Assembly: GCA_015179125.1 (NCBI GenBank) | Contig: WHVA01000032.1 | Coordinates: forward strand, 1 to 64,000 | Direction: 5' to 3' | Length of the DNA: 64,000 bases | Origin: Gautieria morchelliformis | Lineage: Eukaryota; Basidiomycota; Agaricomycetes; Gomphales; Gomphaceae | In this document: positions 4,555 to 27,916 of the stretch, piece after piece | Layout of the letters: the number at the start of each line of letters is the position of its first letter | Position numbering within the stretch: the stretch's first letter is position 1 | The notes under the pieces: generated by a model | Told to the model about the DNA's origin: nothing | Seen by the model: only the letters and a program-made list of their open reading frames with translations | Database searches by the model: none | Made by a program: the position numbers and the translations under genes

Positions 4555-5052
4555 TGTTGGGTGCATTTATGCTCCTGCACCAAAATCAAGCATAATATAT
4601 CCAATTTGTTGTGTGGCCTTCCAATTTCTTCTCACATTGTTCTTGTATTATGCATCCATTTCTCTGGTTATTTTCGAAATTTTCCACTCATTCCTTATCT
4701 CTCTATTTCATCTTGTTATTCCTACTTTCACAAGCGGCTGCACCCAGCGGAGTCTGAAATGACTTCGACGCGCGAGCTCTTGGGCGCTAAAGGGCCGGGT
4801 AGTAGTACATGCGCAGTGGAACACATTTCCCCCTCTCTCAGTGACCACTAAATTCACTGAGAGAGGCAAGTAAATTAGTCTAGTAGTCTTTGCATTTATT
4901 GACCTAGAAATCCTCTGTAGTGAATTGATTTCTAGGTAGTGTATAATATATTTATAGTGACCACTAAATTCACTGAGAGAGTGAATTGATTTCTAGTCTA
5001 TTCTTTTGAATAACAAGTCCATACCTACTGCCTATAATTCCTGTCCTCTACA
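4555..5052 (+). repeat. Copia-L 5' LTR, 498 bp
   Basis: Begins TGTTGGGTGCATTTATG and ends CCTGTCCTCTACA. It contains an internal inverted motif, the repeated box GTGACCACTAAATTCACTGAGAGAG (two full copies, with CTCTCTCA just upstream of the first), and a possible TATA-like stretch (GTATAATATATTTATAG near 4938). The following bases GGGTTATGGG include the gag-pol ATG at 5058, so the primer-binding site and start codon lie within a few bases of each other. Confidence 0.93.
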
Positions 5053-5057
5053 GGGTT

Positions 5058-8000
5058 ATGGGCCCCGGAGACACTTCTGAGAAGCTATTGGGTGTTGAGA
5101 AGCTTGCTACTGATGGTAGTAATTGGCCATTGTGGCGAGCCACTCTCATCAGCTATTTCGAGTCCAAAAATCTACTCAAGCATGTAGAAGGGAGAGTCAC
5201 TCGACCTCCTGATCCTCCAGTCATGCCCCCAGGCCATATTCTAACAGAAGCTGAGGAAACTCAGATGGATAAGGCCGAGGAGAAGCTGGAGAGATACCTT
5301 GCTAGAGAAGGACAAGCCAAGACCCAAATCATCGTCTCAGTGTCAGAGTCATTAGCCCTGATGCTACAGAAGCAGAAGACAGCAAAAGAGACTTGGGATG
5401 CACTGGTCAATGAAATGACCAAAAAGCCCAAGATGGTCCTCACCAGCCTGCAGAGACAACTCCGCAGTATGAGATGTCCTGAGGATGGAGACTTGAGAGA
5501 TCACTTGGACAAGGCCCAAGACCTATATGCTCGTCTTAATGAGATGGGAGCTAGAGTTTCTGAAGAAGAATTCATGGACATAATCCTTGCGTCACTTCCA
5601 CCATCCTATGAGGCAGTCATGAATGCCCTTACAACTTCGCTTGAAGAATGCGGGATGCCATTGGTCCCTGATAATATTATTAGGGTACTAAAGGCTCAGT
5701 ATGACAGGAAGAAAACACTCCCGCAAGAAGAGCAGGTGTTTATTGGTTCATCTACTAAGAAGGACCAGAAGGGGCAGAAGGCGCATGTATGCACCAACTG
5801 CAAAAAGCCTGGACATTCCATCGAAAATTGCTGGGCTAAAGGAGGTGGTAAAGAAGGTCAAGGACCACGTCAGAAGAAGAAAGCCAAAGGCAAGAAGAAG
5901 AAGAAGGGTAAAGCAAAAGCGAATGTTGCCGAAGAAGAGTCTACTTCTGAGGAAAGTGGTGATGGGCATCTTGCCTTCACCAATTTCGACGAGTGCTCTA
6001 ATTTCAATTTGAGCACATCCTCAGGAGTTATAGTCATACTCGACACCGGAACGACATCGCATATGACTCCTCACAAAAATTTATTGAGGAACTACTGTCA
6101 ATTCTCACAGCCGAGGACTATCCGAGCAGCCAACAAAGGTACCTTTGATGCCTTCGGCTCAGGACTGCTCGTATTATCCAATAAGGTTGGAGATAGAACA
6201 GTAGAAGTCACGTTGCAAGATACATACTATGCACCCAAAATTGCTGCTACCCTCGTCTCGATCGGTCGGTGCGATGATGCTGGCTACGACATTCGACTCG
6301 GTGGCCAGAAATGCACAATATCTAATGCTGCTGGAAAAGTATTGATGCAAGCACCGAAAGTCAATGGCTTATATCGACTAGACCTCCAGTCACCAAGTGC
6401 TCAAGCCCATATGTGTTTATCTGCCATGGAAATTCATCAAAAGATGGGGCACATCTCGCAGAAGTCCCTACAACATCTATTAAATCATGGCATGATATTG
6501 GGCATTGAACTGAGCTCCACAGGCGATAGAATTGTCTGTGATGCGTGTATTCAGGCCAAGATTGCGCGCAAACCTCTTCCTCGAGAACCCAGAGACCGAA
6601 CATCAAAATTCGGTGACAGAATTTATTCTGATGTCTGGGGACCTGCAAGACACCTCACGATCGATAAGAAGTCATATTATGTCTCCTTTATCGATGACTA
6701 CTCAAGAGAATCGGTGATCTATCTCATGGCGAACAAATCAGAAGCATTCTCAAAGTACAAGCTCTACGAGGCTTTAATGCTTCGACAGAGAAATGTGCAC
6801 ATCAAGGCACTTGTTTCTGATCGAGGGGGCGAGTATATGAGCTCTGAATTCGAACAGCATCTAGCCAAACAAGGCACGAAGCATCAGTTGACGGTACACG
6901 ACACACCAGAGTCCAATGGTGTTGCGGAACGCCTGAATCGAACTCTCACTGAGAGAACTCGTGCCATGCTGCTAGAATCAGGCCTTCCTAAGATATTATG
7001 GGGCTATGCGATACAGCATGCCAATTATCTTAGGAATAGGACGCATACAAGAGCTCTACCAGATAAAACGCCCTACGAGATGATTCACCATGAAAAACCG
7101 AATCTCAAAGACATTCACGCGTGGGGAACTGAAATTTATGTTAAAATCACTCAGGGAGATAAATTGGCAGCTCGTGCCAAGAGAGCTCGGTGGATAGGAA
7201 TTTCTGCGCAGAGCCATGGTCATTATGTTTATTGGCCTGACTCGCACAAAGTTTCTGTCGAGCGGAATGTTGTGTTTGATTCAGAGATGAAGAAGGGAAA
7301 GGTCCCAATCATTTCTATTGAGGAATCCAAGCTACCTACGTCTAAAGAAGAGAAGAAGGCCATTCCGGCATCAGTGCCTGTGCCCGGTCGCTTAGTCAGC
7401 GAAGAGGCAAAGATCGAAGAAATTGATGAAAGTGCACCGGAAGAATATCTTGAAAAGCTGCAACCTATTCAGGGAGTTGATGACAGACCTAGAGAAGCTG
7501 AACCGATAAGGAGAAGCGAAAGGATCCGTCAACAACAAGTGCAGCCGGCCCCATCAGGTCCCGTAACAAGATCTCAAACCCAGAGACAAGCTGGCGCACA
7601 TATGACTACGCTAGCTTACGAGGACGTTGAGGACCATGAAGAAGTTTTATTCGACCAAGAATTATCCTCCGAGATTGATGGCATCAGTAGCTATGAGTGT
7701 GCCATCAGTGCGTTTCTAACCGACGGTCAAAACAATAACAAGGCGCCGGATTTGAGTCAAATTGAACCTAGCAATGCAGACGAAGCTCTGAATAATCCTA
7801 TGTGGAAGAAATCAATGGACAAAGAGTATGAGGCCCTAATCGACAAGGGAGTGTGGGAACGAGCCAAACCACCTCCTGGAGCCAATATTGTCGGTAATAA
7901 ATGGGTCTACCTTTGGAAGCGTAATCCAGAAGGGAAACCAATAATGCCTAAATCGAGAATGGTCGCCCAAGGCTTCACACAGAAGTTTGGAGTCGACTAT

Positions 8001-9179
8001 GATGAGACATACTCACCTGTTGCTCGGTTATCCTCCCTACGGATCATATGCGCCATTGCTGCTAGGAATGACTGGCCTATTCATCAAATGGACGTGGACT
8101 ATGCATACCTCAATGCTACGTTGCCCGAACCTATTTACATGAAGCAGCCGTATGGATATGAGTCAGGAGACAAAGGCGAAGTGCTACTTTTGAAGAAAGC
8201 ACTCTACGGCCTCAAGCAATCTGGAAGAGAATGGTACAAACGTCTAAGTGGTGAATTCCACAAGTTAGGATTCACTACGTCAGCCACAGACGGGGCTGTA
8301 TTTTATAGACGTGGCGGAAAGGGGCATGTGATCATTGCAACAGCTGTGGACGACCTTACCATCACAGCTGAGAATCAATCAGTCCTGGACGAAGTCAAAC
8401 GAGATCTTGCTCAGGTCTTCAGTATGAAAGATCTAGGCGAGATTCATTGGCTATTGAATCTCAAAATCGAAAGAGACTGGCAGAAGAAGACCATTGCAAT
8501 TTCACAACCTGCATACATCGAGAAGATCATCAAAAAATTTAATCTCGAAGATGCAAAGACTTATGCTACGCCTCTTGATCCAGCCGTAAAATTATCTAAA
8601 GACCAATGTCCTTCTACAGAGAGAGGCAAGAAAGCCATGTCGAAGTTTCCATACAGGCAAGCTATAGGATCACTGATGTGGGCGGCTGTAGCCACTCGAC
8701 CTGACATTGCATTTGCGGTGTCATTACTCTCGCAATTCCTTGAAAATCCAGGTGGCACACACTGGAATGCAGTCAAACGTGTCTTCAAATATTTGAAAGG
8801 CACGAAGCATTACAAGCTCACACTTGGAAGAAATCAAGACGGCTTGATGGGGTATTCAGATGCGGATTGGGGTTCACAGAGTCATAGGCGTTCGTATTCG
8901 GCATACTTATTTCAGATTGATGGAGGCACTGTTTCATGGAGTTGCCAGAAACAGTCGATAGTAGCCCTCTCATCAACTGAAGCCGAATTCGTCGCCCTGA
9001 CCCATGCGGGCAAAGAGGCTCTTTGGATGCGCCATTTTATTTCTGAAATATTCCAACCACTGAACAGACCCATCCAAGTTTATTCAGACAATCAATCAGC
9101 CATTGCCATCACGTATGGCACCCAACAACACACGAGAACCAAGCATTTCGACATCGGTTATATTTCCTTCGAGATATAA
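5058..9179 (+). pseudogene. Copia-L gag-pol polyprotein, frameshifted near its C-terminus
   Basis: One ATG-started frame (5058). Gag is followed by a CCHC zinc knuckle (CTNCKKPGHSIENCW, residue 245 on), an aspartic protease (DTGTTSH, D at residue 329), a gag-pre-integrase finger (H..H, CDACIQAK), a DDE integrase core (first D at residue 525 in YSDVWGP; SDRGGEY; ESNGVAERLNR), reverse transcriptase (active site AVDD, D at residue 1098) and RNase H (SDADW, D at residue 1268; SSTEAEF; SDNQSAI). Compared with copia-R, one base is missing near 9152 (ACATCGG against ACATCAGG). This ends the protein about 40 residues early, inside the last RNase H block. Only a few other amino acids differ (for example LGGQ/LGDQ, YKRL/YKHL). 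Confidence 0.93.
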
Positions 9180-9314: not shown

Positions 9315-9812
9315 TGTTGGGTGCATTTATGCTCCTGCACCAAAATCAAGCATAATATATCCAATTTGTTGTGTGGCCTTCCAATTTCTTCTCACATTGT
9401 TCTTGTATTATGCATCCATTTCTCTGGTTATTTTCGAAATTTTCCACTCATTCCTTATCTCTCTATTTCATCTTGTTATTCCTACTTTCACAAGCGGCTG
9501 CACCCAGCGGAGTCTGAAATGACTTCGACGCGCGAGCTCTTGGGCGCTAAAGGGCCGGGTAGTAGTACATGCGCAGTGGAACACATTTCCCCCTCTCTCA
9601 GTGACCACTAAATTCACTGAGAGAGGCAAGTAAATTAGTCTAGTAGTCTTTGCATTTATTGACCTAGAAATCCTCTGTAGTGAATTGATTTCTAGGTAGT
9701 GTATAATATATTTATAGTGACCACTAAATTCACTGAGAGAGTGAATTGATTTCTAGTCTATTCTTTTGAATAACAAGTCCATACCTACTGCCTATAATTC
9801 CTGTCCTCTACA
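9315..9812 (+). repeat. Copia-L 3' LTR, 498 bp
   Basis: Same ends and length as the 5' LTR and apparently identical. It is preceded by the purine tract AAGCTTGAGGGGGCG (9300-9314), a good polypurine tract. It is followed directly by gypsy-B gag sequence (AGAACCG), not by gypsy-2, which is the first sign of the rearrangement. Confidence 0.93.
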
Positions 9813-10702
9813 AGAACCGTACGACGGATCACACGATGATCCGGGCGTTAGGACGCGCGGACACGACCAGAGAGTCTGTGCTAGCGAAGGGCATAAATGG
9901 CCACCGGCCGTATGCAATCGGACCTCGAAGAATTGAATTTCGTGCAGCATCCTACGATGGCTGAAATGAATTGCCTCTAGGCAACCAGCTAGACACGCAG
10001 GTCGCTACGTGGCACTCGCCTCACCGGCCCAGGAGTGGTTCTTTCAGAACGTTCGTCGATCGCAGGGCGCTGGAGTCGATGATGCAAGGCCCAAAGAGGT
10101 TCCTGCACACACTGACATACCATCACGCATCGAATAAATTCAACCCGGTCATGCAGCAGAAAACCGTTCAGAGATGCTGAATGAGCTCACAAATACGCGC
10201 ACGATGAACAGCGCAGACGAATACACGTTCCGGAGACGGTCGTATCGGCGCTACGCGAAACACTGCGCAACGAAGTCCTCAAAAAGGGCTATAATACGAG
10301 AGCAGCTCAATAGAGCAGCTCTTTGAGACGGCCCGAATGATCGAGGAGGCATCCCGATACAACATGGGGATGCGCCGCACGGAAAGCGCAGCGGCAACGG
10401 CAAGCGCCGCCCGGCTCACAGGGAGCAAGCCGTTGACACAAATGGGCCTGACCAGGCCCAGCCTGTTCGCAAGAAGCGGAACAGGACACGGATATCGCCC
10501 TCACGCCCAACACAAACTGGACGCCTGCCTGAGGCTAAACAGCCTGAAGCGCCAGGATCGTCCCCGCGACCTGCCCCACCGACGAAAATGTCGGGCCGGC
10601 CCAATGACAGGCCCAGCGGCAGCCAAAGCAACGCCACATGCTTTGAGTGCGGCCAACCTGGCCACAAGAAGGCTGAATGCCCCCGGCTTAGGTCCGGTAT
10701 AA
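9813..10702 (+). pseudogene. Gypsy-B gag, C-terminal part with zinc knuckle, frameshifted
   Basis: Joining the minus-strand gag start (ending ...PI at 28415) to 9813 continues the frame as PIEPYDGSHDD, a reasonable start of a retrotransposon gag domain. Further on the frame is broken by shifts: one frame holds IEEASRYNMGMRRTES (about 10337), and another holds a CCHC knuckle CFECGQPGHKKAECP (about 10639-10683). After the knuckle comes an acidic linker with runs of D and E. Nothing here can make a full-length Gag. The junction with the copia LTR has only AG in common with the other side instead of a 5-bp duplication. Confidence 0.75.
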
Positions 10703-10958
10703 GGATAGCGGCCGTGAGGCACGATGGTGAGGCCGAGGATCCGGAGACGGATCCCGATCAAAACTCTCTTCAACAAATCGATGAAGAGGGGGAGGGTGAT
10801 CCCCAACCCAACGACACTCCGGATAACGGAGACACCCCCGCTGAAGAGTGGGACCCTGAGCCGTCCCAATACTATGAATGGGACGAAGAGGTGGAAGATA
10901 CCACCTATAGGTCCAGTGCGATCAGATTTGCGCTGGAAGACGAAACCGCCACGAAGTC

Positions 10959-11516
10959 ATGGCGGCTCGCACATCGGTCACGCCAGACAAGGCGGCCGAG
11001 CCGGTGTATCACCACCGAAGTAAGCACAGAACGTGGCCAACGCGTCCGCGTAGTGAGAACCGTACCCTATCGGGGTACTGGGAAATAAATGGCGTAAAAG
11101 CCCACTGCCTGCTAGATAGCGGCAGCGAAGGGGTACTGCTGTCCCCCAAATTCACGCGAGCTACAGGGATGAAGACATTCTCCCTGGAGCAGCCAATCGC
11201 ACTGCAGCTAGCCTGCATAGGCAGCCGTTCCACGATCAACTATGGAATGAACACGACCATCAAGTTTGGTCGCGGGACATACGACGAATACTTCGAAGTG
11301 GCAAACGTCGAATATTACAACGCGATCTTAGGGACACCGTTCCTAAGGAGATTCGGCATAACCCTGGACTTCTCAAGCCCAGGGATGATCCGCAAGGGAA
11401 ACGAAGTGATCCCTACGGGCAAGGTCTCATTCAACGACGACGACTCGAAGAACGAGGACAAAGAGCCACGGGTGAGCAGGATCACCCAAGCGCCGACGCC
11501 GAACCCGGCTCATTGA
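10959..11516 (+). pseudogene. Gypsy-B aspartic protease region
   Basis: Within this frame the stretch GYWEINGVKAHCLLDSGSEG (about 11070-11130) is a retropepsin-like aspartic protease with the catalytic DSG. A second conserved block follows (YYNAILGTPFLRRFGITLDF, a hydrophobic-G-P-F motif, about 11313-11372). The frame ends at TGA 11514-11516 and differs from that of the upstream zinc knuckle, so a frameshift or decay separates gag from pol. Confidence 0.75.
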
Positions 11517-11626
11517 AGCCAGGAGGACGAGTCGCGGAACGACTCGTCCTCAACCTCACCCTACAGTCGTAGGGAGAGACGCTCTCACCTGACAGTGAGA
11601 ACAATGGGACAGAGGAAAGCGGGCCC

Positions 11627-14157
11627 GTGCGCCGCAGACCTAATAGACGCCAACAGCGCCTAACGGCTTCTAAGCCAACCGTTACCATCATCCTCACGGA
11701 TGATGACCTTCCTCGCCTCCGCGAGGAATGGATGGAAAGAATCACTGACCTAGTCAGTGGAATTCCATTAGAACTCCCGCCATTGCGGGAGATCAACCAT
11801 GAGATCAACCTCATCGATCCCAACAAGCACATGCGGTATCGACTACCAAATGCCCCGAACACTTCCGAGAGGAACTGTCGGCAAAGATAGAACGATACAC
11901 CACTGCAAAGTGGTGGATTCCGGCAGTAGCGCAGCAGGCAGTGCCCATGCTGTGTGTGCCAAAGAAGAACGGTACGTTGAGAACCGTCTTCGATCTGCGC
12001 CAGCAGAATGAGAACACGGTGAAGGACATCACGCCCTTCCCGGATCAAGATATCATATGCAGCGACATGGCTCGCGGCCGATATCGAACTAAACTTGATA
12101 TGTCAGAAGCATACGAGCAGATCCGGATCCATCCGGATCACGTAGCAAAGACAGCCTTTGCTATGATCCTCGGCACCTTCAGGAGCCAGGTGATACAGAT
12201 GGGGGACTGTAACGCCCCATCAACATTCCAACGGCTGATGACAGCCATCTTCCGCGACTGCATAGGTCGCTTCATCCATGTATACATGGACGACATCTTC
12301 ATATTTTCGCTCTCAATACAAGAGCATGAAGAGCACCTCTACATCGTCTTTGACAGACTGAGGAAGAACCACCTCTTTCTGAGCAAGAAAAAGGTGGACC
12401 TCTACTCCATCAGAATGGAGTGCCTCGGCCATATAATCGATGGCCGAGGAGTACATGCCGACGAGGATAAGATGCAACGCATCCGCGAGTGGCGCAGGCC
12501 ACGGACATTCAACGACGTCCAGCGCTTCCTCAGGCTCATACAGTATCTGGCACACTACATGCCGGATGTCAGCGCATATACCACCCCGCTATCGGGCTGT
12601 GCGCGTAATAACCGTCCATTCGAATGGACGCCTCTGCTCGACAAATGCTGGCAAAGCATTAAGGCGCTGGCCTGTAAGGCCCCGATCCTGCGTCCAGTAG
12701 ACGCAAGGTGCCCAGAGCCAATCTGGGTGATCACCGACGGATCAAAAGCCGGCATCAGTGTGGTCTATGGCCAAGGTCCCGACTGGAAAACTTGTCGACC
12801 AGCCGGCTTCTTGTCAAAGAAGTTCAGCGTTGCTCAGCAACACTATCAGACTCACAAGCACGAGACGATCGCGGTGCTCAAGGCTCCCATGAAATGGGAG
12901 GACAAACTGCTGGGGCGAAGGTTCACCCTTGTCACAGACCACAAGGGACTCAAATACTTCGAGACCCAAAAGAGCCTATCTGACCGACAGGTCAGATGGT
13001 GGGAGTTTCTCTCCCGGTTCAATTTCAACACCGTTCATGTTGACGGTGTAGAGAACAAGGTAGCGGACTGCCTGTCGCGCTATTACGAGAGCGACACAGG
13101 TGACGACAATCACCTGGACCACATCTTCGTGAACGCGGATGCGCGTTTAGATCCGGACGGTGAGTTATTGCCCACCGACCGGTATGTCGAGCTGCGAACA
13201 GCGGCGACAAGACGATCTAAACGCCTCGCTGAGAAGGCAGAGGCGAGAGTAACAGAAGCCGCCGCATTAAACGAGGGCTCACCAGAGCCCGCGAACGTCG
13301 CCACATCCAGCGACGACGACGATGACGTCAAAGCCATCGACCCAGGGAACGACAGCGCACCCCTGCGCCGGATCGTCGAGCAAGGCGTAGACCTGTCTAA
13401 GGTCCTACGAGACGCGTACCATAGGGACACCATGTTCACAAAGATCATGGCGCACCCGGACGCGCACCCGAGATTTGGAATCTGGGACGGGCTGTTATGG
13501 ACTAAGAATCAGCTCAAGAGAGACGTCATTGCCGTCCCCCGCTCTGTTCTTCAAGGGGGAAGGAGGCTGATCGAAATTATCATCGATCAGGCACATCAGA
13601 TAGTCGGCCACTACGGCCATCTAAAGACTTCGAACTACGTTCGAAGGGCATATTGGTGGCCGGGCATGAGCCCAGACATAGAGGTGTTCTGCACTTCGTG
13701 CGCGAAGTGTCAGATGATGAAAACTGGGCCACAACGGCCCAAAGGCCTACTACACAGCCTACCCATTCCGGATAGGCCGTGGCAGTCGATTGGCATCGAC
13801 TTCATGGGCCCCCTGCCCAGATCTAACGACTGCGACTACCTGATGGTAGTCATCGACCGACTAACGTCGCTCGTACACCTCGTGCCAACCACGACGAGCG
13901 TGTCAGCCAAGGGAGTAGCCTGGCTGTTTCTGAAGGAGATCATCCGACTACACGGAGTTCCCGACTCCATCGTATCGGACAGAGACTCAAAGTTCACGTC
14001 GATCTTCTGGCGTGAACTCCAGCGACTCATGGGACTAAGCTCCTCATGTCAACTGCCTTCCATCCACAAACGGATGGAGCAACCGAGCGGGCAAACCGCT
14101 CGATCAGCCAGATATTGCGCGCAGTCGTTAGAGACGATCAAAAGGATTGGGCAGTGA
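11627..14157 (+). pseudogene. Gypsy-B pol: reverse transcriptase, RNase H and integrase (two frameshifts)
   Basis: Starts with a linker ending HMRYRLPNA. A one-base shift near 11856 moves the frame into PEHFREELSAKIERYTTAKWW, the usual lead-in to reverse transcriptase. Then come PMLCVPKKNGTLRTVFDLR, the active site YMDD (near 12282-12293), RNase H (ITDGSK..., TDHKGLKYFET, VADCLSR), an acidic linker, the integrase finger (H..H, CAKCQM) and the DDE core (GIDFMGPLP, SDRDSKF). A second frameshift near 14040 ends this frame; the integrase continues as STAFHPQTDGATERANR in the next frame. Because of these shifts it is a pseudogene, although most residues are conserved. Confidence 0.88.
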
Positions 14158-14876
14158 AATGCCCAATGGTTGAGGTCGCCCTCAACAGCAACGTCAGTGC
14201 GACCACAGGGTTCGCACCTTTCGAGCTGAACCACGGCTATATGCCGCGGATAGACCTCCCCATAGACGCGGACACCCCGTTCAAAGGGGTGGCCCGGTTC
14301 GCACATCAGGCAAAATGGAACCTGATGGCGACACACGATGCAATCATAGAGCATCGAGTGACGCAAACGTTTCACGCAAATAAGAAACGTATGGCGAGCG
14401 ACAGATACGCGGCCAACGACCGCGTCTACCTCTCGACACAAAACTTAACTCTCCCGAAAGGAAGAGCCAGAAAACTAGTCCCGCGGTACATCGGACCATA
14501 CCACGTCATCGAGGCTCACAACGATGCCTCGATGGTGACCTTCGATCTTCCCGATGAGCTGAAAAGCCGTCGCATTTCACCGGTTTTCCATTCCAGCCTC
14601 GTACGGCGATACGAGGCTAACAACGACGAATTGTTCCCTCATCGTGAGGCCAAGTCATTTTATGACTTTGGAGCAAATGACAACGAGGAGTGGCTCATCG
14701 ACAAGATTATCACACATCGATGGATAAACTCGACGGACCTGGAATTCCAGGTCCGTTGGACCCTAGGTGACGTGACATGGGAACCCATGTCGTCCTGCAA
14801 GGACCTGGAAGCCCTGGATAGCTACTTAGAGCTTCGGGGGGTGGGCAAGCCACGCGACCTCCCCAGACGCCGCTAG
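14046..14876 (+). pseudogene. Gypsy-B integrase C-terminus and chromodomain
   Basis: Continues the integrase after the frameshift near 14040. HPQTDGATERANRSI carries the third catalytic E; then comes a GPY/F-like block (KLVPRYIGPYHVIEA) and a C-terminal chromodomain-like module (EWLIDKIITHRWINSTDLEF to VTWEPMSSCKDLEALDSYL). Stop at 14874-14876. Between it and the next start (15000) lie about 120 bases with no gene, including a G/C-rich inverted repeat around CACGTGCAGACCACGTG. Confidence 0.85.
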
Positions 14877-14999
14877 ACGCATCTGTCACGTGCAGACCAC
14901 GTGACGCGCCGGCCACGGCGCGGTTAAATTTTCACCTCGGATCTTTCCGAGGGCGCATCGCTTCTTGGAAGCTACCACCACCATCATCTACCCACGAAG

Positions 15000-17476
15000 A
15001 TGATGCCCCCCAAAGATGGGATGGACGTTGACCCGTCAACGTCCACAACGCGAACAACGGCCCCGAGACAAGGGGCCGCGGACATTCTCCGTGCTCTGGT
15101 AGACCAGGAGCACTGGACTATCGTGGGATGGGAGGACGCCCTCTGTAAGGGCAACCCTGGCTAGTCGTGGAGATCACACTACCACACAACTGACAAGGGG
15201 AAATCCAAAGTATGTATAAATGAACAGAGCATACAAGAGAGGGGGTTCTCACCTGACAAGGGGAAATCCAAAGAGAAAAGTCTAAGGACCCCCAATGTCA
15301 GCGAGCCCGTATTATACTACGCTGCGCAGCCAGGGACAACGCTTGGCACCCGCCATCAACCCTGCATCCCCCTGACCCTTGATCGACCCTTGATGCTACC
15401 TATTATGCGAGTCGCTTGATTTCCGACACTGTTCCGGGGCGGAAGTCGGAAATTGGAGTGGAACTGGCAAGGCGAACGGAACTGGTGGAAGTTCTCCCAG
15501 AAGCGGAATCGTTCCCGAAAGCGGATGCGGAGATGGAATCGGAACCGGAAGCGGAGTCGGAAATGGAGTCGGAACTGGGTGTGGTGTCGGAACTGGAAAT
15601 GGAAAACAGGGTGTCCCCTGACACCCTCGCCATCGTCCACCCGGACGATAGCGCGACGTGCACGGACTATGCCGTGCACCTAAGGGCAGCGACAGGCACC
15701 CGCAAGGTCAAACTGCGGGACGAAGACATCGGCGACGCCGTCGATGCAGCGTGGGGATGGCTCCCAAAGGGCATCGCGCGTGACGCGCGAGAGGAGCCCC
15801 TCCGGGACGTCCACGACCTCAAAAAAGAGGTCAAGGAGCTAGAACGCGCGGTCGAGGACCGCGACGACGCACTCGCGACCGAGCGCGCCAGGATCAAGGA
15901 GCTGGAGCAACAGCTGAGTGCAGCCCAGCTCCAGGTTACCCTGGTCCACGCTGCCTCAAAAAGGCCGCGACATGACCCAGCCACAGACCCAGTGGCCGGG
16001 CCATCTTCACCTCGCGCGACGGCGCCGTTGCCGGCGCGCGCAACGTCGGGGCTCGTGTCCCGATTGTCGGCGCCGACGCCAACCACGACAACAACGGAAG
16101 GGCAGAGCGCACCTTCCGACTCTGCGTACGGCGTCCCTGATGGATGGGACTCCGACTCATCCGTCTGGAAGGCGTACGACCCCGAACGGGCACAGTGGCT
16201 GGCAGAGCAGCCAAAGAAGAAGCTCAAGAAATTGCGCGGCCCCATCCACAACGTCAATGGGCTAGCCATTGCGAAGGAAAGCGCGATCAGCGCTTACCTG
16301 GCGGCGTCATCGTCGCACACCATCCACGACCCCGCCCTTCAGCGGCGGATAGCTCAGGTCGAGGCCCAGTACATCGGGCCTGGCGTGGCCCTACCGCCGC
16401 CGACGGGGACAGTTGAGTCGGCTTATCCTCCCTACCCGGGGGAGGGAAGGCTCATCCCACTCGGAGATCCACCAATCTCCGAGATGGGCCTACTACCACG
16501 ACCGGTAGGAAAGGCCCAACAACGTCGTACCCAATGGTACGACGTCTGCCCGCTCGACGAACCCCGCTTCGTCGAACTCATAGCGCGGGCAAAAGAAACA
16601 CCGCAGATCGCGCGTACGCGCGAGATGATCGGCGTATTCAAATGTATCGAGCGCGAACAACGCGCTCGCAATCCCAAAAGGGATTGTCTCGTGATAGCAG
16701 ACGGTACCCCGCACGATATCGCGGCCATCCTGAAGGGTTGGATACACAACCCCGAGGGAATTCCATCTGCCATCTGTGACAACGCAGATGGCACCTTCAA
16801 CCTAGACGATATGGACGTCTGGATGTGGTTGAAGGCCCTTGCACCCCGGGTCAAAGGGGTCGCATCACCACTCAGGGCGAGACTACTCGACCTCTTCGGT
16901 TCGACTGACCAATGGTCGAGCCTCGTCGACGCCAGGGAAGTGCTGATGCCTCAGAGCACCACCCTGCGGCTCTCAATCACGGGCCCATTCCCTGTGGAGG
17001 GCCGAGCCGGCCCCGACATCCCACTCGCGGAGATCGCGAGATGGTTGGCCCGCTACGCGGGGGTCACTCGCGAGCGAGCAGCGCGCATTGAACATTACGT
17101 TCAGGGCAGCATCACCGGCGCGGCATTCAGCGCCGCCGCCCGTGAGGGCCAACAAAAGGTCATCGAGACCAGCCATGTGAGGGCCGCAGTGCCACGACCC
17201 CTCACTCACGCTCAGCTCGACCGAGAGCTGGCGCGCTTCCGGCCCCCTCCTCAAACGGAGGACCCGGCCGTCAAGGCTATGCTCCGCGAGGACACGGGCC
17301 CCAGCGCCTAAGCGGAGAGCGTCACCAGTGGTGAGGCCGACCAGCCTCCCCCAATCACCACCGACGACGCGGAGATGCCCCTGGAGGAGTCACATGCTCC
17401 TCCGGCCCCGTACGACGACGTCGTCGTCGTATCGGCCACTCTAGAGGATTCCCTCATGGACGACCTCTATGAGTAG
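15000..17476 (+). pseudogene. Gypsy-B ORF3, extra protein of unknown function downstream of pol, split by a solo LTR
   Basis: ATG at 15000 opens 48 codons to 15143. The solo LTR 15144-15623 and its CCCTC duplication follow, and the same frame resumes at 15629 and runs to TAA at 17309-17311, giving 608 residues before insertion. After that stop the same frame stays open for 54 more codons to TAG at 17474-17476 with an acidic, proline-rich tail, so the TAA may itself be a late mutation. Visible features: an N-terminal S/T-rich stretch, a coiled coil at about residues 108-143 (DLKKEVKELERAVEDRDDAL...), a P/T/S-rich middle, and a folded-looking C-terminal half. I see no signal peptide, membrane segment, zinc finger or envelope feature. 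Its place after integrase is where some elements carry an extra gene. I do not recognise the function. Confidence 0.7.
15144..15623 (-). repeat. Solo LTR of the gypsy-1 type, 480 bp
   Basis: Reads TGTAAGGGCAACCC to GTCCCCTGACA and is flanked on both sides by CCCTC (15139-15143 and 15624-15628), a perfect 5-bp duplication. No internal element sequence is present. It shares with the gypsy-1 LTR (19083-19557) the extra segment GGTGTGGTGTCGGAACTG that gypsy-2 LTRs lack. It probably arose by recombination between the two LTRs of a full element inserted in gypsy-B ORF3. Confidence 0.93.
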
Positions 17477-17512
17477 TAGTCAACCCCTATAGTTATCTAT
17501 AGAGGGGGAGGG

Positions 17513-17726
17513 TGTAAATAACCTGTGTATCTACATGTAAAATAGTTATTACATAATCCCAGTGGGCCCCTTAGGGACCCACTGTATAGTTTATGCGTGG
17601 GAACCGGCCAGCGGTTCCCATCGCATCTTACTCTTACCTGTCACTACATAGCATTCAGAATACCACTCATTGGTCAAGTTCTGCAGTGCCCTTGTGATAC
17701 AAGGTCCTAAGATCGACATCTTTACA
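17513..17726 (+). repeat. Gypsy-B 3' LTR, 214 bp
   Basis: Begins TGTAAATAACCTGTG after the purine tract AGAGGGGGAGGG (17501-17512) and ends CGACATCTTTACA. It differs from the 5' LTR (29904-30117) at two positions, one an ACGT to ACAT change at a CpG. Two long hairpins are visible: 17560-17584 (CAGTGGG...CCCACTG) and 17598-17620 (TGGGAACCG, 5-base loop, CGGTTCCCA). Confidence 0.92.
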
Positions 17727-17938
17727 GCAGACTACCGGTTTTCTCCCAGAAGACTTCGGAGTACGGTCAGAGGAGTGGGACGGTGCCTATCCAGACCACA
17801 AAGCCCTTCAGGTAGGGCGCAAAGGCAAGGAGCTTGTCATCAGCCTCCCTGCACAGATCTGGTATCCTCGTGCCGTTTCTTGGGCCCAGGCTCTCTACGT
17901 TATGAGCGAGGTGCAGTTCCAGCTTGAAGAGCAATAAT
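17727..17938 (+). pseudogene. C-terminal exon of the integrase-like host gene, displaced by the inversion
   Basis: After the GCAGA duplication the frame reads TTGFLPEDFGVRSEEWDG, then LQVGRKGKELVISLPAQIW, then YPRAVSWAQALYVMSEVQF, ending LEEQ and TAA (17936-17938). This is the conserved C-terminus of the Agaricomycete integrase-like family whose remaining exons are at 30118-32104 on the minus strand. Joining at the duplication (...GTG CAG GTG CAG ACT ACC GGT...) keeps the frame exactly. It is a separated piece of one gene, not a gene on its own. Confidence 0.85.
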
Positions 17939-18089
17939 GTAGGCATCTATCATCTCCATCTATCTAATTTTTTCATCTTGGTTTGCATGTAGAGAGATCG
18001 CTGTGCCCGACTGCATGACACGGCGCGACACACACACGAAACCAGTGGGTTTGAATCTGAAGGGGTCACGAGCACCCACATCCATGGTG

Positions 18090-19082: not shown

Positions 19083-19557
19083 TGTAAGGGCAAGCCTGGC
19101 TAGTCGTGGAGATCACACTACCACACAAAAGGGGAAATCCAAAGTATGTATAAATGAACAGAGCATACAAGAGAAGGGGTTCTCACCTGACAAGGGGAAA
19201 TCCAAAGAGAAAAGTCTAAGGACCCCCAATGTCAGCGAGCCCGTATTATACTACGCTGCGCAGCCAGGGACAACACTTGGCACCCGCCATCAACCCTGCA
19301 TCCCCCTGACCCTTGATCGACCCTTGATGCTACCTATTATGCGAGTCGCTTGATTTCCGACACTGTTCCGGGGCGGAAGTCGGAAATTGGAGTGGAACTG
19401 GCAAGGCGAACGGAACTGGTGGAAGTTCTCCCAGAAGCGGAATCGTTCCCGAAAGCGGATGCGGAGATGGAATCGGAACCGGAAGCGGAGTCGGAAATGG
19501 AGTCGGAACTGGGTGTGGTGTCGGAACTGGAAATGGAAAACAGGGTGTCCCCTGACA
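19083..19557 (-). repeat. Gypsy-1 3' LTR, 475 bp
   Basis: Reads TGTAAGGGCAAGCC to GTCCCCTGACA. It lies immediately 3' of the gypsy-1 pol end on the minus strand. It has a small internal deletion near 19127 relative to the other LTRs (ACAACTGACAAGG reduced to ACAAAAGG) and carries the GGTGTGGTGTCGG segment of the solo LTR. In the element's orientation the outer flank is ATAGG. Confidence 0.88.
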
Positions 19558-20696
19558 TCACCCCCCTCTAGCGTGCTGCGTCCTCGAAGCACGGGACACA
19601 AGGGATTGAAATGCCAGCGAGCGGATTCGGCGAGGGGCACCTGGATGTGTCCTATAGAACTCCCGGAGTTTGTCAGGAGCGGAAACATCTTGCTCCGGGA
19701 CCCAAGAATTCTCCTCGTACCCATACCCTTCCCATTTCACGAGGAATTGGAGTCGTCCTCGCACAAACCGGCTGTCCAGGATCCGTTCCACCACGTAGTG
19801 CTCTTCCCCATCTACAATTTCTGGCGGAGGTGGCGGATGAGCCTTCCGATGTGGAATTGGGTCCTCAAGCATAGGGAGTAACTTCACCACGTTGAAGACG
19901 GGGTGGAGGCGGGACATGGACATCGGAAGTCGGAGGCGGTATGCATTCCGTCCAACCCTCCGCGTCACTGTGAAGGGCCCAAGGTAGCGGTGGGCAAGCT
20001 TCTGCGAAGGGCGTGTGGTGTGGATGTCACTTGCATCTAGGTACACCTTGTCTCCAACTTGGTACTCTGGGGCAGGAACCCGGCGTCGGTTGTAGTACCT
20101 TGCCATGTCATCCTTGGCCTTCGCAAGGGCCGACTTGGCTTCCGAAAGAGTGGAGTCCATGCGGTCTCGGAACTCGTTGACCGTCTCAAGTCGGGACTCA
20201 GCCTGGCGTGGTTCGAAGCCCATCCGCGGGTGTCGTCCGGAGTCAAGCATGAAGGGAGTCTGTTGTGTGGCGGAATGGACATGGTTGTTGTATTGGAATT
20301 CCGCCAGCGGAAGTAACTCATCCCAGTCATCCTGCCTCTCATTGACAAAGAGGCGGAGATATTGCTCTAACGCCTGATTGACCCGTTCCGTCTGTCCGTC
20401 GCCCTGCAGATGGTACGCTGTGGTGGTAGCCAGCTTTATGCCGAGCAGGCGGTAGAGCTCCCGAGTCAGTTCCGCGACAAACTGCGGACCTCGGTCGGAA
20501 ACAACTTGCTTCGGGAGCCCATGCAACTTCCAGACATGTGCAAGGAACAGGCGGGCCGCTCCGAGGGCTGTGATCGTCGTGTGCGTCGGAATGAAGTGGG
20601 ACACCTTGCTCACCGAATCCACGACGTTCATGATCGCGTCGTAGCCATGAGACTCTGGGAGTTCAACGATGAAGTCGACACTGATGGTGTCCCAGC
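19558..20696 (-). pseudogene. Gypsy-1 pol, 3' part: integrase core and chromodomain
   Basis: Minus-strand continuation of the fragment at 1-813. The frame begins WDTISVDFIVELPESHGYDA, passes the integrase core (SDRGPQF, GDGQTERVNQ), the C-terminal block (HRYLGPFTVTRRVG) and a chromodomain (YVVERILDSRFVRGRLQF to ENSWVPEQDV), and stops at TGA 19558-19560 directly before the LTR. It is preceded on the minus strand by the gypsy-2 5' LTR. The bases between LTR and coding sequence are GCTGG, the same 5 bp found at 809-813. Confidence 0.9.
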
Positions 20697-21159
20697 TGTC
20701 AGGGGACACCCTGTTTTCCATTTCCAGTTCCGACTCCATTTCCGACTCCGCTTCCGATTCCGATTCCATCTCCGCCTCCGCTCTCGGAAATGATTCCGCT
20801 TCTGGGAGAACTTCCACCAGTTCTGTTCGCCTTCCCAGTTCCACTCCAATTTCCGAGTTCCATCCTCGGAACAGTGTCGGAAATCAAGCGACTCGCGTAA
20901 TAGGTGACATCAAGGGTCGATCAAGGGTCAGGGAGGTGCAGGGTTGATGGCGGGTGCCAAGTGTTGTCCCTGGCTGCGCAGCGTAGTATAATACGGGCTC
21001 GCTGACATTGGGGGTCCTTAGACTTTTCTCTTTGGATTTCCCCTTGTCAGGTGAGAATCCCCTCTCTTGTATGCTCTGTTCATTTATACAGACTTTGGAT
21101 TTCCCCTTGTCAGTTGTGTGGTAGTGTGATCTCCACAACTAGCCAGGGTCGCCCTTACA
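20697..21159 (+). repeat. Gypsy-2 5' LTR, 463 bp
   Basis: Reads TGTCAGGGGACACC to GGGTCGCCCTTACA and is followed by the gypsy-2 leader and gag, so it is the 5' LTR in + orientation. It appears identical in inverted form to the 3' LTR at 814-1276. Left flank CCAGC (20692-20696) is the reverse complement of GCTGG at 809-813. Confidence 0.93.
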
Positions 21160-21346
21160 GCAGAAAAGTCTCTCCCATAGAGGACCGGCGGTCGTACTGC
21201 GTGTCGCAGCCGCCATAGGTGCGTTCGGAATCGGAGACAGCGACTCGGAGATTGCAACCTCTTCCGCACACACAGCGTACGACAGCCCTTCTTCTTACGT
21301 CGAGCTCCCAACCCCGGAAATCCCGTCCCACATTTCTCCTTCCGAC
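21160..21346 (+). other. Gypsy-2 leader between 5' LTR and gag
   Basis: 187 bases without a gene. The primer-binding site should start within the first few bases after the LTR (GCAGAAAAGTCTCTCCC); I cannot assign the tRNA. The region encodes a short open stretch rich in acidic residues in the gag frame, so the true gag start could lie slightly upstream of 21347. Confidence 0.6.
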
Positions 21347-22522
21347 ATGGATCCGGACGATCGTCTTCGGAATATGGAGGAGGAATTGACGCGGAACCGG
21401 ATGAAGACCGACGCGATTGAAACAGCCTTACAAGCGATTTTGGCTAAGTTAGATATTCCACAAGGTGGTGGAAATGAAATGTTGGATGATCCGGATTTCG
21501 GAAAAGCGGAACTAGCGGAGGAGAGAAAGTCCGCGAAGTTAGCAAAGGTCAAACCCGCAACTCCGGCGGACTTTGACGGAGATCGGGAGAAGGGACGCGC
21601 ATTCTTCAACACATGCAGCATCTACTTCGCAATTGTCGGAGACCTCTTTCCGAACGACCAGGCTCGGATTCACTGGGCATTGTCCTTTTTCAAGTCGGAC
21701 CGCGCATCCCGTTTTGCAAACAAGGTGATCCGACATGAAGCAAAGGGCAAGGGGAACTACTTCCGAGACTGGGACGCCTTCGAGAAAACATTTTCCGACC
21801 AGTTCTGCCCAAAAAATGAGCAGCTCACAGCCCTTACGAAGCTCGAGGGGACCAGCTGGTACCAGGCCAAGGATCCGGTCGATGACTATATCGATCGCTT
21901 CCAGGAGCTCATCGACCTTGCGGAGTATGATGACGACAAGACGATCGTCATCAAATTCCGACGAGGACTCGATCCGACACTCCAGAACCAAGTTGCGCTG
22001 CTTGGGGATGGAGCTCCGGACTTTGATGACCCGGAAGGGTGGTACCAAGCTGCACAGAGGGTGTCCCGGAACAGGGAAGCAAATGAGGCCTTCGTGGAGA
22101 CGAGCCGGAATATGACGCGCAGTTCCACTCGTCCTACTCCACCTGTGCCAAAATCCGGAAGCGCATTCATTCCCATGCGGAAAGTATTTCCGACGCTTTC
22201 TCCGCTCGCTCCTATTAGGAACCATAGCCCTCCTCCCTCGAAGAGTGGCCCTGCCCCGATGGATGTTGACCGCATGCGCGGAAAAGGCCGCGGAACTATC
22301 ACCTGCTTCCGATGTCAACAACCAGGCCACTATGCCCGCGAGTGCCCCCAAGCATTTGACATCCGGCTTATGACCACAGAGGAGAAACTCGAGCTCCTTC
22401 CAGAGTTCCTCGCACTTGCGGACATAAGCGGAGTGCCTACTGCGGAAGGAGTTTCCGAAAATGCGGAACATGGCGCATCGGAAGCGGAAGATGCGTCGGA
22501 TTTTGTGACGCGCAGCGGGTGA
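21347..22522 (+). CDS. Gypsy-2 Gag polyprotein
   Basis: ATG at 21347, 391 residues. The N-terminus is a short acidic coiled coil (DPDDRLRNMEEELTRNRMK). The capsid-like retrotransposon gag domain covers about residues 70-250 (DFDGDREKGRAFFNTCSIYF, WALSFFKSDRASRF, DWDAFEKTFSDQF, DDYIDRFQELIDLAEY). A single CCHC knuckle follows at residue 320 (CFRCQQPGHYARECP), then an acidic tail. The stop TGA (22520-22522) overlaps the next frame, which is open through this point, as in elements that make Gag-Pol by frameshifting; no slippery site could be confirmed. The protein forms the virus-like particle that packages the element RNA. Confidence 0.88.
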   Translation: MDPDDRLRNMEEELTRNRMKTDAIETALQAILAKLDIPQGGGNEMLDDPDFGKAELAEERKSAKLAKVKPATPADFDGDREKGRAFFNTCSIYFAIVGDLFPNDQARIHWALSFFKSDRASRFANKVIRHEAKGKGNYFRDWDAFEKTFSDQFCPKNEQLTALTKLEGTSWYQAKDPVDDYIDRFQELIDLAEYDDDKTIVIKFRRGLDPTLQNQVALLGDGAPDFDDPEGWYQAAQRVSRNREANEAFVETSRNMTRSSTRPTPPVPKSGSAFIPMRKVFPTLSPLAPIRNHSPPPSKSGPAPMDVDRMRGKGRGTITCFRCQQPGHYARECPQAFDIRLMTTEEKLELLPEFLALADISGVPTAEGVSENAEHGASEAEDASDFVTRSG

Positions 22523-23155: not shown

Positions 23156-23653
23156 TGTAGAGGACAGGAATTATAGGCAGTAGGTATGGACTTGTTATTC
23201 AAAAGAATAGACTAGAAATCAATTCACTCTCTCAGTGAATTTAGTGGTCACTATAAATATATTATACACTACCTAGAAATCAATTCACTACAGAGGATTT
23301 CTAGGTCAATAAATGCAAAGACTACTAGACTAATTTACTTGCCTCTCTCAGTGAATTTAGTGGTCACTGAGAGAGGGGGAAATGTGTTCCACTGCGCATG
23401 TACTACTACCCGGCCCTTTAGCGCCCAAGAGCTCGCGCGTCGAAGTCATTTCAGACTCCGCTGGGTGCAGCCGCTTGTGAAAGTAGGAATAACAAGATGA
23501 AATAGAGAGATAAGGAATGAGTGGAAAATTTCGAAAATAACCAGAGAAATGGATGCATAATACAAGAACAATGTGAGAAGAAATTGGAAGGCCACACAAC
23601 AAATTGGATATATTATGCTTGATTTTGGTGCAGGAGCATAAATGCACCCAACA
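23156..23653 (-). repeat. Copia-R 3' LTR, 498 bp
   Basis: Plus-strand reading TGTAGAGGACAGG to GCACCCAACA, the exact inverse of the copia-L LTR ends. The polypurine tract on the minus strand lies at 23654-23668. Confidence 0.93.
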
Positions 23654-23666
23654 CGCCCCCTCAAGC

Positions 23667-26600
23667 TTAATATATTCCGATTTGCTCGTTGAGAATCTTC
23701 ACTCTAGGACTAGGAAGTCCTTTAGTGAGGATATCTGCCAACATTTGTTCGGTTGGCAAATAAACGAGCTTGGCTTGTTGATTTTTGATTATATCTCGAA
23801 GGAAATATAACCTGATGTCGAAATGCTTGGTTCTCGTGTGTTGTTGGGTGCCATACGTGATGGCAATGGCTGATTGATTGTCTGAATAAACTTGGATGGG
23901 TCTGTTCAGTGGTTGGAATATTTCAGAAATAAAATGGCGCATCCAAAGAGCCTCTTTGCCCGCATGGGTCAGGGCGACGAATTCGGCTTCAGTTGATGAG
24001 AGGGCTACTATCGACTGTTTCTGGCAACTCCATGAAACAGTGCCTCCATCAATCTGAAATAAGTATGCCGAATACGAACGCCTATGACTCTGTGAACCCC
24101 AATCCGCATCTGAATACCCCATCAAGCCGTCTTGATTTCTTCCAAGTGTGAGCTTGTAATGCTTCGTGCCTTTCAAATATTTGAAGACACGTTTGACTGC
24201 ATTCCAGTGTGTGCCACCTGGATTTTCAAGGAATTGCGAGAGTAATGACACCGCAAATGCAATGTCAGGTCGAGTGGCTACAGCCGCCCACATCAGTGAT
24301 CCTATAGCTTGCCTGTATGGAAACTTCGACATGGCTTTCTTGCCTCTCTCTGTAGAAGGACATTGGTCTTTAGATAATTTTACGGCTGGATCAAGAGGCG
24401 TAGCATAAGTCTTTGCATCTTCGAGATTAAATTTTTTGATGATCTTCTCGATGTATGCAGGTTGTGAAATTGCAATGGTCTTCTTCTGCCAGTCTCTTTC
24501 GATTTTGAGATTCAATAGCCAATGAATCTCGCCTAGATCTTTCATACTGAAGACCTGAGCAAGATCTCGTTTGACTTCATCCAGGACTGATTGATTCTCA
24601 GCTGTGATGGTAAGGTCATCCACAGCTGTTGCAATGATCACATGCCCCTTTTCGCCACGTCTATAAAATACAGCCCCGTCTGTGGCTGACGTAGTGAATC
24701 CTAACTTGTGGAATTCACCACTTAGATGTTTGTACCATTCTCTTCCAGATTGCTTGAGGCCGTAGAGTGCTTTCTTCAAAAGTAGCACTTCGCCTTTGTC
24801 TCCTGACTCATATCCATACGGCTGCTTCATGTAAATAGGTTCGGGCAACGTAGCATTGAGGTATGCATAGTCCACGTCCATTTGATGAATAGGCCAGTCA
24901 TTCCTAGCAGCAATGGCGCATATGATCCGTAGGGAGGATAACCGAGCAACAGGTGAGTATGTCTCATCATAGTCGACTCCAAACTTCTGTGTGAAGCCTT
25001 GGGCGACCATTCTCGATTTAGGCATTATTGGTTTCCCTTCTGGATTACGCTTCCAAAGGTAGACCCATTTATTACCGACAATATTGGCTCCAGGAGGTGG
25101 TTTGGCTCGTTCCCACACTCCCTTGTCGATTAGGGCCTCATACTCTTTGTCCATTGATTTCTTCCACATAGGATTATTCAGAGCTTCGTCTGCATTGCTA
25201 GGTTCAATTTGACTCAAATCCGGCGCCTTGTTATTGTTTTGACCGTCGGTTAGAAACGCACTGATGGCACACTCATAGCTACTGATGCCATCAATCTCGG
25301 AGGATAATTCTTGGTCGAATAAAACTTCTTCATGGTCCTCAACGTCCTCGTAAGCTAGCGTAGTCATATGTGCGCCAGCTTGTCTCTGGGTTTGAGATCT
25401 TGTTACGGGACCTGATGGGGCCGGCTGCACTTGTTGTTGACGGATCCTTTCGCTTCTCCTTATCGGTTCAGCTTCTCTAGGTCTGTCATCAACTCCCTGA
25501 ATAGGTTGCAGCTTTTCAAGATATTCTTCCGGTGCACTTTCATCAATTTCTTCGATCTTTGCCTCTTCGCTGACTAAGCGACCGGGCACAGGCACTGATG
25601 CCGGAATGGCCTTCTTCTCTTCTTTAGACGTAGGTAGCTTGGATTCCTCAATAGAAATGATTGGGACCTTTCCCTTCTTCATCTCTGAATCAAACACAAC
25701 ATTCCGCTCGACAGAAACTTTGTGCGAGTCAGGCCAATAAACATAATGACCATGGCTCTGCGCAGAAATTCCTATCCACCGAGCTCTCTTGGCACGAGCT
25801 GCCAATTTATCTCCCTGAGTGATTTTAACATAAATTTCAGTTCCCCACGCGTGAATGTCTTTGAGATTCGGTTTTTCATGGTGAATCATCTCGTAGGGCG
25901 TTTTATCTGGTAGAGCTCTTGTATGCGTCCTATTCCTAAGATAATTGGCATGCTGTATCGCATAGCCCCATAATATCTTAGGAAGGCCTGATTCTAGCAG
26001 CATGGCACGAGTTCTCTCAGTGAGAGTTCGATTCAGGCGTTCCGCAACACCATTGGACTCTGGTGTGTCGTGTACCGTCAACTGATGCTTCGTGCCTTGT
26101 TTGGCTAGATGCTGTTCGAATTCAGAGCTCATATACTCGCCCCCTCGATCAGAAACAAGTGCCTTGATGTGCACATTTCTCTGTCGAAGCATTAAAGCCT
26201 CGTAGAGCTTGTACTTTGAGAATGCTTCTGATTTGTTCGCCATGAGATAGATCACCGATTCTCTTGAGTAGTCATCGATAAAGGAGACATAATATGACTT
26301 CTTATCGATCGTGAGGTGTCTTGCAGGTCCCCAGACATCAGAATAAATTCTGTCACCGAATTTTGATGTTCGGTCTCTGGGTTCTCGAGGAAGAGGTTTG
26401 CGCGCAATCTTGGCCTGAATACACGCATCACAGACAATTCTATCGCCTGTGGAGCTCAGTTCAATGCCCAATATCATGCCATGATTTAATAGATGTTGTA
26501 GGGACTTCTGCGAGATGTGCCCCATCTTTTGATGAATTTCCATGGCAGATAAACACATATGGGCTTGAGCACTTGGTGACTGGAGGTCTAGTCGATATAA

Positions 26601-27911: not shown

Positions 27912-27916
27912 AACCC

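Follow-up and report, generated by a model that had tools for sequence, protein, structure and literature searches.

The window analysed here comprises 64,000 nucleotides of the genome of Gautieria morchelliformis (contig WHVA01000032.1, positions 1 to 64,000 of the forward strand). It contains gypsy-B, a Ty3/gypsy long terminal repeat (LTR) retrotransposon of which the coding sequence is densely filled with short perfect hairpins. The domains follow the order gag CCHC, aspartic protease, reverse transcriptase (RT), RNase H and integrase (IN). The Pfam families zf-CCHC, RVT_1, RT_RNaseH, H2C2 and SH3_Tf2-1 were found above the cut-off and Asp_protease_2 marginally above it; rve fell under it and gag-asp_proteas marginally under it. 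A chromodomain at the end of the integrase is matched weakly (Chromo, 17.1 bits, under the cut-off of 25.1).

Two separated parts of gypsy-B lie in the window. The 3' part (9813-17726, forward strand) is hairpin-dense and holds the rest of gag, the protease, the RT-RNase H-integrase region, ORF3 and the 3' LTR. A gag piece with the CCHC zinc knuckle (10327-11088) is followed by a protease-like open reading frame (ORF; 10911-11516), a stretch between the protease and RT ORFs (11517-11802), the RT, RNase H and integrase (11803-14876, with H2C2, the weak rve, SH3_Tf2-1 and the weak chromodomain), a gap between pol and ORF3 (14877-15143), an insertion of ~476 bp (15144-15619) and ORF3 (15620-17311), all on the forward strand. 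In the window copy, the RT-IN region is split over two frames (11803-14157 and 14016-14876). The insertion is foreign to gypsy-B and absent from the other aligned copies. ORF3, located downstream of the integrase, is an open frame of ~687 aa in several other copies. Against Pfam it gave nothing above the cut-off and weak coiled-coil-type matches only; one metagenome protein matches it with 39% identity over 96%. The 5' part (28230-30117, reverse strand), with the 5' LTR and the start of gag, belongs to the same element or to a sister copy. The 3' LTR (17513-17726, 214 bp) and the 5' LTR (29904-30117, reverse strand) form a pair with 99.1% identity over 214 bp.

Hairpins were counted as perfect, non-overlapping inverted repeats with a loop of up to 12 nt, at several arm-length thresholds; where no length is given below, stems are those of at least 7 bp. 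The 3' part holds 14.3, 8.2, 4.0, 1.6 and 0.8 stems per kb at arm lengths of at least 6, 7, 8, 9 and 10 bp. In base shuffles of the same sequence, 2.4, 0.61 and 0.18 per kb are found at 6, 7 and 8 bp. An earlier note on this DNA had described stem-loops throughout pol and ORF3; the excess is stronger than it claimed. All 12 stems that it named are present, and three are longer than it had them: 15022-15045 (11 bp, loop of 2), 12120-12139 (9 bp, loop of 2) and 16768-16793 (9 bp). Between 12100 and 14040, where about 13 stems had been counted by eye, 18 were found (9.27 per kb over 1.941 kb), with ~1.2 in base shuffles (0.64 per kb). Further examples on the forward strand are located at 12613-12630 (9 bp, loop of 0), 12423-12449 (10 bp, loop of 7) and 16522-16545 (10 bp, loop of 4). 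The longest stem length in the window copy is 12 bp, as at 14733-14756.

The excess is not a by-product of the encoded proteins. In synonymous shuffles preserving protein and codon use (100 per ORF), the RT-IN region (9.8 stems per kb) has 19 stems versus a mean of 2.1 (maximum 7), the integrase 11 versus 1.1 (maximum 3), ORF3 13 versus 2.25 (maximum 7) and the gag piece 7 versus 1.15 (maximum 5). This codon-preserving comparison had been proposed with the original observation, and no shuffle reached the observed count in RT-IN, IN or ORF3. The ORF3 frame used for the window (15383-17311) includes 237 bp of the foreign insert; the ORF3 of two other copies, L059 and L061, has 17 stems each versus 2.7 and 2.6 (50 shuffles each). 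Labels of this type denote gypsy-B copies or relatives, or genome pieces, from the same assembly. The protease ORF is the exception, with no stem of at least 7 bp; at 6 bp or more it has 7 versus 0.84 (maximum 3). When dinucleotides were preserved as well, the means were 2.9 (RT-IN), 2.5 (IN), 2.4 (ORF3) and 1.7 (gag), with maxima of 8, 6, 7 and 5.

The excess also extends beyond pol and ORF3. The stretch 11517-11802 contains 8 stems of at least 6 bp in 286 bp, nearly contiguous, the pol-ORF3 gap 6 in 267 bp and the 3' LTR 4. Given these near-contiguous hairpins between the ORFs of the window copy, protein coding may limit the hairpin density elsewhere. Perfect stems are scarcer in the 5' part, with 5 in 1888 bp and a mean of 1.05 under the dinucleotide model. 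An Rfam scan of 9500-18000 gave no match to a known RNA family at the gathering score.

Other elements of the window served as controls. The statement that they do not resemble gypsy-B holds at this arm length for gypsy-1 (3 stems versus a shuffle mean of 3.0), the gypsy-2 gag (1 versus 1.3) and the Helitron ORFs (4 versus 3.7 and 0 versus 2.7), all at chance. It holds less well for copia, which has a mild excess (5 versus 2.4 and 6 versus 2.2) and, at 6 bp or more, 20 and 22 stems versus ~10, more than in any shuffle for both copies; the gypsy-2 gag is also not wholly plain, as described below. A mild excess was also found in the gypsy-1-type piece 19558-20883 (2 versus 0.9; at 6 bp or more, 9 versus 3.4, maximum 8). 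In ten 5-kb pieces drawn at random from the genome, the density is 0.2-3.0 stems per kb; one of them (L072) ends in a gypsy-B-like stretch. Three random pieces (L074, L079 and L081) include some kilobases with up to 4-5 stems per kb, and perhaps represent another family with the hairpin trait.

A search of the assembly (122 Mb, 1113 contigs) with the integrase part, in which 136 of 4335 candidates were scored, identified at least 136 places with 89-95% protein identity, the window's own excluded. The gypsy-B family is thus large. All DNA comparisons of copies were made within this one genome. No DNA relatives were found outside it in the viral and genome contig collections searched. Among 756 protein matches, the best 120 have 50-67% identity, and the named ones are from Phanerochaete and Trametes.

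The density is kept across this family. The 30 top-ranked copies have 14-23 stems in a 1.9-kb core. Twelve further copies, including L036 (75% identity), L037 (84%) and L043 (89%), have 19-29 in ~3 kb, with ~3 in codon shuffles that used a single frame per locus (a wrong one in the window row). The eight copies of subfamily B2 (L036, L049, L051, L053-L055, L057 and L058), 71-76% identical to the window, have 18-26. The earlier note had asked for such a comparison. Of 14 loci retrieved in one set, L045-L048, L050 and L052 (9-17 stems; 49-65% identical to the window, partly other sequence) were kept outside the group tests, and the ORF3-region pieces L067, L069 and L070 (1.9-4.2 per kb) and partly L071 (5.0 per kb) seem to contain non-element sequence.

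The upkeep of this density exceeds the neutral expectation. The actual substitutions were permuted among sites matched in base and in nominal codon position (one frame, 100 permutations). After this, L036, with 25% divergence in pol, would have 3.4 stems (maximum 9), and it has 20. The observed and permuted counts are 19 and 6.0 (maximum 12) for L037 (16% different), 18 and 9.5 (maximum 16) for L043 (11% different), and 16 and 1.4 (maximum 5) for the ORF3 region of L068 (46% different). As the relatives lie above the permuted counts, the density must have been renewed.

Subfamilies B1 and B2 were compared pair by pair, with private mutations filtered out; the two directions of this comparison share pairs. 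Stem pairs are unchanged at 0.80 versus 0.68 and 0.79 versus 0.70 in control pairs, so that paired sites vary less. Changed pairs are compensated in 7 of 43 and 5 of 39 cases versus 3.6% and 3.9% in controls, 3-5 times more often. In total, 62 stem pairs are common to both subfamilies (slid control mean 0.37, maximum 10), including those of the stems at 11898-11915 (7 bp, loop of 4) and 13833-13852 (with a compensated pair). The stem at 12423-12449 is fully paired in L036, with one pair changed on both sides.

Among 29 copies, the density falls with the number of private differences (rho -0.47, p 0.011; -0.44, p 0.018; and -0.39, p 0.039 at 6, 7 and 8 bp or more) and rises with the observed/expected CpG ratio (0.65 and 0.51 at 6 and 7 bp or more; 0.28, not significant, at 8). 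This indicates that the hairpin density is a property of the mobile element and is eroded in integrated copies. The same tendency rules out that stems form in the chromosome once a copy has inserted. L024 was excluded from the private-change, density-correlation and cluster tests; it is 99.7% identical to L023 over the 3.8 kb compared and lies on a different contig, a duplication or an assembly duplicate. The CpG ratio of the eight B2 copies is 0.56-0.77, that of the B1 group 0.98-1.11. Of the B1 private changes, 274/529 are C>T or G>A, a methylation- or RIP-like decay.

Folding energy was determined for 350-nt fragments and compared with dinucleotide shuffles, on the sense strand unless stated otherwise. 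The excess is 24.6% for the 3' part joined without the insert, 27.7% for pol, 25.4% for ORF3 and 20.3% for the 5' part. The relatives L036, L037 and L068 have 26.0%, 18.6% and 24.2%. All seven pieces of the gypsy-B clade thus fold below their shuffles, by 18.6-27.7%. In comparison, gypsy-1 has 1.9% and the Helitron -0.9%. Of the elements examined, gypsy-B gives the strongest signal of structure in coding regions. Copia (5010-9179 and 23667-27959) has a folding excess of 12.3% on the sense and 7.8% on the antisense strand, measured on 5010-9179, and the gypsy-2 gag (21143-22522) one of 10.9% (6 fragments), with no excess of perfect stems.

Loop sizes favour stable hairpins. The enrichment is 5.5-fold at 3 nt, peaks at 9.1-fold at 4 nt and stays at 3.3-5.5-fold for 5-10 nt, with 1.7-3.4-fold at 0-2 nt, 2.2-2.7-fold at 11-15 nt and 1.1-1.6-fold beyond. 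The hairpins look built for folding. DNA palindromes as such are ruled out, because loops of 0-2 nt are less favoured than those of 3-10 nt. Loops are enriched in A (1.35-fold; G 0.78, T 0.96, C 0.90, shuffles ~1; eight sequences pooled, some of them close copies). The loop 3-mers are A-rich without a common tetraloop, which rules out a common loop motif. The enrichment is graded, with 10.9-fold for 8 of 8 pairs, 3.8-fold for 7 of 8 and 1.4-fold for 6 of 8 (L037 treated in one frame).

Synonymous positions carry the stems, as had been supposed. Third codon positions pairing with first or second positions are enriched 4.6- and 5.8-fold, and third with third 2.7-fold. Amino-acid conservation is 0.60 in the stem arms versus 0.58 outside. 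Window-specific departures at conserved columns amount to 6/49 in arms and 21/244 outside.

We consider it probable, with some reserve, that these features result from diffuse, long-lasting selection on the genomic nucleic acid of gypsy-B, most simply its RNA, for many short hairpins. The genomic RNA would fold into Watson-Crick hairpins of 6-12 bp, as counted here, mostly with loops of 3-10 nt. Ordinary substitutions in either arm, most of them synonymous, would make and unmake stems, of which few would be fixed in place, and the overall density would be held in the mobile lineage and decay once a copy is integrated. RNA is preferred over cDNA as the simpler assumption, since translation, packaging and exposure to silencing all concern this one molecule. 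Selection as the cause, RNA as the molecule and any benefit are what we infer from the sequences. Candidate benefits are a shield from RNA silencing, through hairpins too short for dicing, and compaction for packaging in virus-like particles.

The changes that make and break stems bear on this selection. Among private changes (low-coverage columns and the insert masked), 33/529 gain and 139/529 lose stems. Of the lineage-fixed changes, ~12/110 lie in stems, and the same sites lie in the stems of relatives about as often, which serves as a proxy for losses. Losses are thus fewer among the fixed changes (~12/110, by proxy) than among the private ones (139/529), and by our own arithmetic the difference is clear on these numbers.

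Several observations weigh against selection for RNA hairpins. Gains are not clearly higher among fixed (~12/110) than among private changes (33/529). The loss proxy understates losses, as it comes from single copies that have themselves decayed (L036 and L037). Variants in at least three copies (17 gains and 76 losses of 305) break stems as often as singletons do; recurrent C>T/G>A decay may explain these losses. Stem positions mostly turn over: between the window and L036, 4 of 46 stems are unchanged, and of the 42 that changed, 3 are still fully paired. The 62 pairs common to B1 and B2 partly reflect shared descent, and some mutation-rich copies stay dense (L009, with 120 private differences, has 13.3 per kb). 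The pairing type is a further point. In one-mismatch stems, the enrichment of G-U versus A-C is 2.8 versus 2.7 (7 pairs), 5.6 versus 5.1 (8) and 7.7 versus 5.5 (9). In the loop-size analysis, A-C exceeds G-U (29 versus 4.9 expected; 10 versus 3.7). The B1/B2 differences give 6 and 12 G-U and 9 and 12 A-C (from rounded fractions), and over the 30 related copies the mismatches are 70 A-C and 7 G-U. Stems present in at least 60% of copies have 4 A-C and 1 G-U in B1, and 1 A-C and 3 G-U in B2. In predicted folds of pol, G-U pairs are rarer than in shuffles (0.052 versus 0.089). Selection on the sense RNA should spare G-U pairs, and G-U is barely preferred. The sense strand folds better than the antisense (24.6 versus 19.6% for the 3' part and 26.0 versus 21.7% for L036), but this advantage of ~12% is not significant (30 paired fragments, p 0.20) and is reversed in two of five pieces.

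A mutational origin without any benefit, in which the RT turns back along its own cDNA, or switches template within a hairpin, and remakes one arm to match the other, appears unlikely. The near-pure Watson-Crick stems with little G-U preference fit it. Template-switch homogenisation of inverted-repeat arms has been reported for yeast genes (PMC8604942), and template switching is discussed for mitochondrial coding palindromes (PMC6649704). The compensated pairs between B1 and B2 would also follow from it. However, stem-making and stem-breaking differences are scattered over both arms as at random, and none of 7 overlapping comparisons shows overdispersion (p 0.29-1.0). Two of the 12 window stems with at least three one-sided broken pairs in B2 have them all on one arm, and by our own arithmetic chance gives ~2.1; the 12-bp stem at 14733-14756 is broken in B2 by three left-arm and four right-arm differences. 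Six window stems with polarised changes of the B1 lineage have one change each. Private clusters of changes seldom rebuild an arm (overlapping copy sets): of 84 two-base clusters, 7 gained stems, and in 1 the two changes fell together on a single arm of the new stem; of 10 clusters of at least three bases, 1 gained a stem and none rebuilt one arm.

Template switching should leave stem-making changes concentrated on one arm, and an excess of perfect repeats that imperfect ones do not share. Changes on both arms and a graded enrichment of near-perfect stems were found, to which decay of perfect stems may contribute; the protein conservation of the arms is not lowered. The exception is an 8-bp stem of L037 at window 12216-12235, where the three polarised changes all lie in the left arm and the comparison with B1 gives four left-arm differences and one right-arm difference. 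It looks like a template switch; one of the changes alters an amino acid by our reading of the codons. One-arm overwriting as a rule is ruled out by the both-arm differences and the rarity of arm-rebuilding clusters. Part of such an origin would escape this analysis: private changes are mostly post-insertion decay, which tends to hide errors of the last RT cycle, and a single mismatch corrected by the RT would look like one substitution. Of the two causes named in the earlier note, the evidence favours selection for RNA folding; the both-arm differences speak against quasi-palindromes being perfected by template switching, and the substitutions between copies that it proposed to follow gave the single case of L037.

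Selection could also act on single-stranded cDNA or on both strands, through DNA hairpins in reverse transcription or integration, and not on RNA; this we hold to be improbable to a similar degree. The mismatches are nearly strand-symmetric, A-C lies above G-U in the loop-size analysis, and DNA hairpins also favour loops of 4-5 nt. Against it, the sense strand folds somewhat better than the antisense, and sense-strand loops are rich in A and poor in G, neither of which is decisive. That composition, codon use or peptide repeats produce the excess as an artefact is hardly credible: gypsy-B is A-rich, with a GC content of 53-62%, but codon- and dinucleotide-preserving shuffles fall short of the observed counts and other window elements at 45-59% GC have no excess of stems.

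In its excess folding, its succession of short stem-loops and a density kept without fixed positions, gypsy-B follows the pattern of genome-scale ordered RNA structure (GORS). According to the parts of PMC7642675 available to us, the folding-energy difference is ~15% in SARS-CoV-2, and the highest genome mean among vertebrate RNA viruses is 23.4%, with single regions higher (>50% in ORF3a). The 24.6% of gypsy-B (27.7% in pol) was obtained with similar but not identical settings. As far as these sources describe it, GORS of RNA viruses shares with gypsy-B the excess folding energy along the coding sequence, the largely unbranched, consecutive short stem-loops, the poor conservation of pairings between relatives and the shortness of the duplexes. 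Consecutive short stem-loops with poorly conserved pairing positions are also what the gypsy-B copies display. Unlike viral GORS, gypsy-B is an integrated fungal LTR retrotransposon, and its stems, counted here in the sequence, are nearly pure Watson-Crick. Tentatively, in an LTR retrotransposon lineage much of the genome may have become a string of hairpins of up to ~12 bp, as a general shield against RNA silencing by the host or an aid in packaging, in parallel with RNA viruses. The copia element of the same genome, with its 12% energy excess, may be on the same path.

The nearest DNA precedent found is that of the nematomorph mitochondrial palindromes. In the available text of PMC6649704, these are, as in gypsy-B, perfect inverted repeats in working genes, gained and lost between relatives, with unequal codon phases. 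They reach 284 bp, the long ones are nearly always perfect, and conversion is suspected (PMC6649704). In contrast, the gypsy-B stems do not exceed 12 bp in the window copy, are graded, and change on both arms. Yeast template-switch inverted repeats are also short and lie in coding DNA; there, in the portion of the report consulted, multi-base changes homogenise an arm (PMC8604942), which is not the rule in gypsy-B. The genomic RNAs of the LTR retrotransposons Ty3 and Ty1 likewise have folded stretches. They are described as a mosaic in which stable, highly structured regions account for up to 30% of the RNA (PMC11381356). No chain of perfect hairpins like that of gypsy-B was met in the accessible part of that description (PMC11381356). 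Our literature search, with most subscription journals outside its scope and partial texts for the rest, found no ordered RNA structure described for an LTR retrotransposon, and nothing in it contradicts the statement that the pattern had no prior description in a fungal gypsy family.

Genome-wide RNA structure of this kind is discussed for RNA viruses, and its purpose there is presented as undecided in the texts available. In a multi-copy element with decaying copies and with subfamilies diverged by ~5-46% in one genome, the gain, loss and selection of stems are directly measurable, and neighbouring elements serve as controls. Such a system could distinguish between shielding, packaging and mutation as explanations. 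In genomes of this kind, hairpins in coding sequence can also mislead the annotation of inverted repeats.

The division of gypsy-B in the window is apparently due to an inversion between opposed copia copies. Identical, oppositely oriented copia LTRs border both halves; the window has four of these identical LTRs, each of 313 bp and two per orientation, at 4740-5052, 9500-9812, 23156-23468 and 27917-28229. Copy L031 carries the 5' and 3' parts of gypsy-B joined, though window 28230-28419 is unmatched there. The insert at 15144-15619 is 95-98% identical to window 814-1276, 19083-19557 and 20697-21160 (reverse strand), and is perhaps a solo LTR or another non-coding part of a gypsy-1-type element. 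Elsewhere in the window, 34857-35790 and 54642-55165 are repetitive, with several long open frames and repeated Cys/Met/His/Gly-rich peptides.

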